NCBI GenBank assembly: GCA_001803045.1 | Contig: MHAR01000023.1 | Coordinates: 1 to 64,000 of the forward strand | Length of the DNA: 64,000 nucleotides | DNA from: Ignavibacteria bacterium RIFOXYB12_FULL_35_14 | GTDB lineage: Bacteria > Bacteroidota > Ignavibacteria > Ignavibacteriales > Ignavibacteriaceae | Direction: 5' to 3' | Shown: one piece after another, positions 8,776 through 9,413 of the stretch | How the letters are laid out: each line of letters starts with the position of its first letter | Numbering within the stretch: the stretch's first letter is position 1 | Made by a program: the position numbers and the translations under genes | Notes under the pieces: generated by a model | Told to the model about the DNA's origin: nothing | Database searches by the model: none | Seen by the model: only the letters and a program-made list of their open reading frames with translations

Positions 8776-8880
8776 AAAATTCCTTAATAAAATAAATAAA
8801 GCCCAGCGAATGGGGTTAGTCACTGGGCTCGACTCACTTATATCAAAGGGCAGGGGAGAACCCTTTGAAGAGCCATTCGA
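8776..8880 (-). ncRNA. Structured leader RNA or small RNA, with terminator, upstream of the DUF3098-like gene
   Basis: Read on the minus strand from the promoter at 8881-8909. The expected 5' end (about 8876) lies inside CGAATGG (8879-8873), which is fully complementary to CCATTCG (8813-8807). Between them lies an 8-bp hairpin TCAAAGGG/CCCTTTGA (8868-8861 with 8850-8843), whose 10-base loop contains CTCCCC. CCATTCG is itself inside the 16-base loop of a 7-bp hairpin AGCCCAG/CTGGGCT (8829-8823 with 8806-8800) followed by a U-rich tract. So the 5' end can form a pseudoknot with, or compete with, the terminator. Either an attenuator/riboswitch or a free ~85-nt small RNA with C-rich loops. No known class was recognised. 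Confidence 0.55.
8786..8829 (-). terminator. Intrinsic terminator-like hairpin in the leader
   Basis: Seven-base-pair stem AGCCCAG/CTGGGCT with a 16-base loop, followed on the minus strand by TTATTTATTTTATT. It sits directly before the AAGGAA ribosome-binding site of the DUF3098-like gene rather than after a gene, the arrangement expected of a conditional terminator. Confidence 0.6.
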
Positions 8881-8909
8881 AATATAAAATGATGTCAGCT
8901 ATTTGTCAA
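8881..8909 (-). promoter_or_regulatory. Consensus sigma70-type promoter
   Basis: On the minus strand, TTGACA (8909-8904), a 17-base spacer, and TATATT (8886-8881). This is a perfect -35 and a near-perfect -10. Transcription should start near 8876, exactly at the 5' arm of the structured RNA. It lies in the 3' end region just after the stop-proximal end of the 82-aa gene (stop codon at 8920-8922). Confidence 0.65.
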
Positions 8910-8919
8910 GATTGCAGAG

Positions 8920-9168
8920 CTATTTACTTATTTGATAAACAATTTTTCTAATTGTATCAAACTGTAAATAAGGGTACTCTTCCCTGATAGCATCGATAGC
9001 GTCACCAGCGCTTATTTTACTGGCTCGCAGCTGCTTGAACTTTTTACGGATTTGGTAATCTCTTACTGATTTCTCATCAATGAGTCCATGAGAATTTAAT
9101 AAATCATAGATATCATCGCTGATGAGGTCCGAAAGGGGATTATCTATTTTTGCTTTGATGGTATTCAT
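8920..9168 (-). CDS. 82-aa protein of unknown function, possible helix-turn-helix
   Basis: Not a family recognised with confidence. It is short (82 residues), mostly helical by composition, with no membrane segment or signal. The C-terminal half (about 42-82) runs through a Lys/Arg-rich stretch RKKFKQLRASKISAGDAI into a segment ending FDTIRKIVYQISK, which resembles the recognition-helix end of small HTH proteins such as the Mor family (weak). The ATG at 9168 has a strong AGGAAGG site. It is preceded by a ~210-nt structured leader and its own promoter, suggesting tight or auto-regulated expression. Confidence 0.6.
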   Translation of the reverse strand: MNTIKAKIDNPLSDLISDDIYDLLNSHGLIDEKSVRDYQIRKKFKQLRASKISAGDAIDAIREEYPYLQFDTIRKIVYQISK

Positions 9169-9379
9169 ATAGTCCTTCCTTTTTTTGTTGTTACTATTTC
9201 CTTAGGAAATCCGTACCGATAATGTCTATATACTTCCTTTCAGATAACTTGTTTCAAATAAGCAACAAAAAACCGACCAGAGAAATTCCCTAAATCGGCA
9301 TAAATTTGCTACTCTGGTAAAATTGATTAAAATTTTAGGGCAGTAGCAAACTCTAGATAAAAAAACCTTTCATTATTTA
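9169..9379 (-). promoter_or_regulatory. Long structured 5' leader with interleaved stems (candidate riboswitch/attenuator)
   Basis: Minus-strand leader of the 82-aa gene. Three complementary pairs are interleaved: TTTGCTACT/AGTAGCAAA (9350-9342 with 9313-9305), CCCTAAA/TTTAGGG (9340-9334 with 9294-9288) and ACCAGAG/CTCTGGT (9318-9312 with 9282-9276). The first pair encloses one arm of each of the others, so they form a pseudoknot or alternative folds. A CCGA/TCGG stem and T6 tract (9272-9267) follow. About 90 further bases, with a small ATTTCC/GGAAAT hairpin, lead to the AGGAAGG site and ATG. No known riboswitch class was recognised. Confidence 0.55.
9267..9318 (-). terminator. Terminator-like hairpin inside the 82-aa gene's leader
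   Basis: ACCAGAG (9318-9312) pairs with CTCTGGT (9282-9276); a short CGG and then six T residues (9272-9267) follow on the minus strand. The loop is long (29 bases) and carries TTTAGGG, complementary to an upstream arm. As a lone terminator it would be weak; as one of two competing folds it is plausible. Confidence 0.45.
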
Positions 9380-9385
9380 GGTACT

Positions 9386-9413
9386 AAAATATAATAATAT
9401 TTCTTATTGTCAA
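9386..9413 (-). promoter_or_regulatory. Sigma70-type promoter of the 82-aa gene
   Basis: Minus strand TTGACA (9413-9408), a 16-base spacer, TATTTT (9391-9386). The predicted start near 9379 makes the structured leader part of the transcript. The -35/-10 pair closely resembles the ones at 8881-8909 and 36850-36878, supporting a TTGACA-type housekeeping promoter in this organism. Confidence 0.6.

Follow-up and report, generated by a model that had tools for sequence, protein, structure and literature searches.

Organization of the locus

The window, that is, the whole 64,000-nucleotide stretch analyzed here, belongs to a 4.1-Mb assembly (G000) of Ignavibacteria bacterium RIFOXYB12_FULL_35_14, a member of the Ignavibacteriaceae. 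On its minus strand, a structured leader is followed by a gene encoding an 82-amino-acid (aa) protein (positions 8920 to 9168, with the ribosome site AGGAAGG at 9180 to 9174), a second structured RNA, a 92-aa TM gene, and dprA. Most orthologous loci in Ignavibacteriaceae and Melioribacteraceae show the same succession of 82-aa gene, TM gene, and dprA. The nearest named relative, L062, is an Ignavibacteriaceae MAG whose 82-aa protein is 98% identical to that of the window.

The 82-aa protein was matched in 129 of 146 relatives and in 141 of 294 members of the class, with 79 to 98% identity in most close orthologues. In the AlphaFold2 model, which is of good confidence (mean pLDDT, 87.5), the protein has four helices, the last two of which appear to resemble a helix-turn-helix (HTH). 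No solved homologue was found by profile or by fold search, and no significant match to defense or phage families was obtained. The only family resemblance is that of the C-terminal half to DUF433 (COG2442), which at 14.9 bits is weak and lies below the Pfam gathering threshold of 23.6 bits; when members were tested individually, 28 of 55 matched weakly (best E value, 0.0016). This family includes a DNA-binding, autoregulatory antitoxin, VapB10, which controls its own operon (PMC3834315). Beyond the subthreshold similarity, the two systems differ: the 82-aa locus has no toxin-like partner, its neighbors being the TM gene and dprA, and VapB10 acts on promoter DNA.

The initial annotation had described a TTGACA-N16-TATTTT promoter and a leader of ~210 nt with three interleaved pairings and a terminal T6 tract. 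The σ70-type promoter driving the leader is indeed present (9386 to 9413; TTGACA at 9413 to 9408 and TATTTT at 9391 to 9386) and recurs upstream of orthologues. The T6 tract, which is the predicted transcript end (9272 to 9267), likewise stands; it directly follows a terminator hairpin, CCGATTTAGGGAATTTCTCTGGTCGG (9298 to 9273; −11.4 to −11.9 kcal/mol), and is conserved in the alignment described below. The structured, terminated part, however, spans only ~110 nt (~9380 to 9267), and the remaining ~100 nt up to the ATG form a separate conserved block (AAAGGA, TATA, and GGTACGG; 9240 to 9190).

Upstream of the terminator, stem P1 is formed by two conserved arms, TTTGCTAC (9350 to 9343) and GTAGCAAA (9312 to 9305). 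Adjoining P1 is a bulge, ACCAGA (9318 to 9313), whose complement, TCTGGT (9281 to 9276), is part of the 3′ arm of the terminator; we refer to this pairing as S2. The full complementary pair in the window is ACCAGAG (9318 to 9312) with CTCTGGT (9282 to 9276). The window also has the third pairing, CCCTAAA (9340 to 9334) with TTTAGGG (9294 to 9288), but only P1 and the ACCAGA pairing recur in relatives. The CCCTAAA pairing was rejected, as the nearest relative (L033/L062) has ACTAAA and other relatives also differ. A ribosome-mediated attenuator acting through the suggested leader peptide, MKGFFI, was dismissed as well, since its ATG is replaced by AAG in the nearest relative (TAAATAATGAAAGG versus TAAATAAAGAAAGG).

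Folded alone, the window leader is unremarkable (z = −1.68, with 11 of 200 shuffles folding as well). Because this single-sequence fold is unconvincing, relatives were needed, and the comparative data lift the leader above chance. Calculated for the window, the S2 duplex (−9.6 kcal/mol) is comparable in stability to the terminator (−11.4 kcal/mol).

Conservation and gene specificity of the leader

Leader DNA is recognizable within the family Ignavibacteriaceae. From an alignment of 44 distinct leaders (A2), we built a covariance model, R1, which gave 47 matches in 46 of the 146 relatives. All 47 matches precede the 82-aa gene on the same strand at a distance of 87 to 152 nt (median, 97 nt), so that the conservation upstream of homologues expected of a regulatory leader was found and the RNA is gene specific. 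The one genome with two R1 matches also has two copies of the 82-aa gene. In a class-wide draw, R1 was found in 14 of 294 genomes, namely, 13 from the same family and G108, from another family of the same order; the sole class-wide match away from the 82-aa gene was borderline (G027; E value, 0.055). A dispersed riboswitch or mobile repeat was rejected, given the single copy in the window's genome and the absence of matches at other genes in relatives. Many orthologues of the 82-aa gene have no leader. On a dprA tree, of which we used the topology alone, the automatic leader labels being wrong for some rows (e.g., L064, L101, L080, and L073), leader-bearing species are scattered across much of the family and mixed with leaderless ones.

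The Rfam search proposed in the initial annotation yielded no family for the leader at the gathering threshold and none of relevance down to an E value of 5, and no covariance model of a known riboswitch class matched it at either level. These results bear on the reading of the leader as a metabolite- or ion-sensing riboswitch, in which P1 and a pseudoknot formed through S2 would make up a ligand pocket and the gene would answer the ligand. The crcB and pfl riboswitches contain pseudoknots. In the crcB (fluoride) and pfl (ZTP) motifs, the riboswitch RNA overlaps a terminator (PMC2864571), and our leader resembles them in layout, in that its 5′ region sets a compact fold, which should raise expression, against an overlapping intrinsic terminator; the conserved nucleotides around the junction also fit a pocket. 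Unlike crcB and pfl, the leader has no Rfam match and is associated with one gene in one family. Moreover, its apical stem and loop are variable, S2 is lost in several genera, and the target is neither a metabolic nor a transport gene. We therefore regard a riboswitch as quite improbable.

Covariation of the pairing that opposes the terminator

In A2, P1 is paired in 95.5% of cells and the outer terminator helix in 94.3%. P1 itself shows little compensation (2 cells in one lineage, GTTAC/GTAAC), with several wobbles. For S2 and P1 together, 91.7% of cells are paired, and 15 cells, 13 of them in S2, changed on both sides, compared to 3.8 in shuffles. The covariation score was reached by 0 of 500 shuffles, which ignore relatedness, and sliding the partners abolished the signal. 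The changes in S2 fall in at least three clades. At the most compensated position, a change from G to A in column 120 accompanies one from C to U in column 71; since column 120 pairs with the terminator U as either G or A, the terminator does not force the compensated change. Thus, the covariation to be expected upstream of homologues exists and concerns an antiterminator-type pairing. We conclude that the leader is genuine and subject to selection.

Even where a leader is present, the proposed S2 switch can be missing: approximately 9 of the 44 leaders (genera g20, g12, g7, and g24) have no S2 pairing, although both P1 and the terminator are retained. Between its two arms, P1 encloses a sequence that on average is somewhat more stable when folded than its shuffles (mean z, −1.12). 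It forms an apical stem of variable sequence, and CCAGA for the most part stays free of this pairing; in the window itself, the loop is weak (z = −0.41).

With a simple threshold, a terminator was called in 43 of the 44 leaders but, among 24 leaderless upstream regions of orthologues, in 1, as many as expected from shuffles (1.0). Attenuation would therefore belong to the leader-bearing lineages and not to the gene at large. Two elements of an attenuator are present, namely, an intrinsic terminator between promoter and gene and a covarying alternative pairing, S2, on the terminator strand. As ACCAGA adjoins P1 and pairs with the 3′ arm of the terminator, the pseudoknot and the terminator are mutually exclusive. 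These data support the earlier proposal that a small gene, perhaps coding for an HTH protein, is preceded by a regulatory leader with mutually exclusive folds that ends at a terminator.

The same features can be set against an sRNA reading, in which the leader would be a free-standing, trans-acting RNA of ~110 nt and the 82-aa gene would be transcribed from its own proximal promoter. The leader is a complete promoter-to-terminator unit, the separate conserved block between terminator and gene is promoter-like in some relatives, and a second sRNA-like RNA lies just downstream. Nonetheless, no leader independent of the flanking gene was found among the 47 matches, the leader lies within a narrow range of distances from the start codon, and a terminated sRNA has no need of S2, which opposes the terminator and covaries. 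A trans-acting sRNA is thus an unlikely, though not a negligible, explanation.

Promoter motifs and the gene-proximal block

Of 41 leaders, 23 have a TTGA[CT]-N17–19-TAnnTT promoter ahead of P1, compared to a mean of 0.64 after shuffling. In addition, 19 of the 73 upstream regions contain strict ECF σ-like motifs (mean after shuffling, 0.18). These motifs cover the arm and loop of P1 in some lineages (GCTACTTTTTTAATTTTTGTTCGTCTAA), lie over the gene-proximal TTGATAC block in others (GATACTTATGTTAAAGTTATGCGTCTAA), and farther upstream in several regions without a leader; the upstream region of the window has no strict match. In some relatives, the block equivalent to 9190 to 9240 of the window contains an ECF σ-like promoter, TTGATAC-N16-CGTCTAA. 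This block (AAGGAG-n-TATA-n-TTGATAC; minus strand) persists in orthologues without a leader, and a loosely similar one, AGGAG-n-GTATCGATAGCTGTTGTTAGTGCTTC, precedes homologues in another family of the class; this observation covers the window, L178, L179, L185, and L189. The block is a candidate for either a promoter or an RNA element. In G016 (L214, approximately position 1500), the ECF-type motif ACTTTTTTAATATTTTTGCGTCTAA, near-identical to that in some leaders, is located directly before clpB, hinting at a shared stress regulon. Judging from these motifs, the 82-aa gene may be under stress σ control in parts of the family, and the P1 5′ arm may have arisen from, or double as, a promoter element.

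Such motifs raise the question of whether conservation acts mainly on DNA, with the P1 arm and the TTGATAC block serving as elements of ECF-type stress σ promoters and the RNA pairing being secondary. The excess of motifs over these two elements and the clpB motif speak for this reading, but the P1 3′ arm stays complementary, including the compensated change, and promoters leave the covariation of S2 and the terminator unexplained; the window itself, moreover, is without a strict motif. We judge it very unlikely. A composite scheme, in which the bulge-to-terminator pseudoknot would be controlled by the encoded HTH-like protein while, in some lineages, the same DNA also supplied the −35 region to an ECF-type stress σ promoter, so that the σ factor in use would decide whether the attenuator is made, also seems rather improbable.

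Where paralogues of the 82-aa gene lie outside the dprA locus, a different hairpin, such as ACCGCATA-TTTATGCGGTTG, recurs upstream (L130, L133 to L135, and L139 to L141); it is perhaps another leader type.

A second structured RNA downstream

Downstream of the 82-aa gene and ahead of the TM gene lies an RNA of ~95 nt with its strong promoter, TTGACA-N17-TATATT (8796 to 8909, minus strand). Both of its hairpins carry C-rich loops (UUCUCCCCUG; in the window, ACCCC). In the alignment of this RNA, 97.4% of cells are paired, with 56 cells changed on both sides versus 18.6 in shuffles, and a covariation score of 0.46 versus 0.24 in shuffles, none of 500 of which reached it; this signal is stronger than that of the leader. 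Rfam contains no match for the C-rich-loop RNA, which occurs in 31 of 119 class genomes and, in several further families, stands ahead of a small TM gene resembling this one. The window's genome carries a second copy (L229; G000:C54:6241-6341, plus strand) with no small TM gene after it, which favors a trans-acting role. This RNA may act as an sRNA or, alternatively, may attenuate the TM gene.

Pairing of the C-rich-loop RNA with the ribosome site of the 82-aa gene was rejected for want of clear overall support (mean z, −0.39 and −0.76). The terminator loop of the neighboring RNA, CCCCCC, is complementary to the GGGGG ribosome site at several Melioribacteraceae-type loci (L124, L125, L131, and L136), which is suggestive of such pairing in some Melioribacteraceae with GGGGG sites only.

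Discussion

On balance, our data make it reasonably likely that, in Ignavibacteriaceae, the leader acts in cis as a transcription attenuator dedicated to the 82-aa HTH-like gene, with the gene's own product as the likeliest trigger. A housekeeping promoter would start a short transcript in which P1, capped by the variable apical stem, forms and leaves ACCAGA exposed beside it. Once transcribed, TCTGGT could pair with ACCAGA to give an H-type pseudoknot adjoining P1; alternatively, a few nucleotides later, it could complete the terminator CCGATT..GGTCGG. The pseudoknot would allow read-through into the gene, whereas the terminator would stop the transcript after ~110 nt, and the balance would be set by a factor that stabilizes or blocks the pseudoknot. 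Because the 82-aa gene is the only partner of the RNA, feedback by its predicted HTH-like product is the most economical trigger, and we infer that this protein is the likeliest factor. A comparable suggestion exists for the rmf motif of Pseudomonas, for which the authors considered binding by the gene's own product or a separate ncRNA (PMC2864571). Like the leader, the rmf motif is a conserved RNA before one small gene; unlike it, it differs in sequence, taxon, and gene, with homology compared through Rfam only.

Our literature search, which covered open-licence papers, found none on such RNA switches in the Ignavibacteriaceae lineage. The attenuator would be an addition to the conserved cis-regulatory RNA families, one that is missing from Rfam. 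Since a single strand serves both pseudoknot and terminator, and a G-U to A-U change disrupts the pseudoknot but not the terminator, the locus permits a clean compensatory-mutation test. For the family, the leader marks an unnamed, very conserved HTH-like protein as a regulated regulator worth testing.
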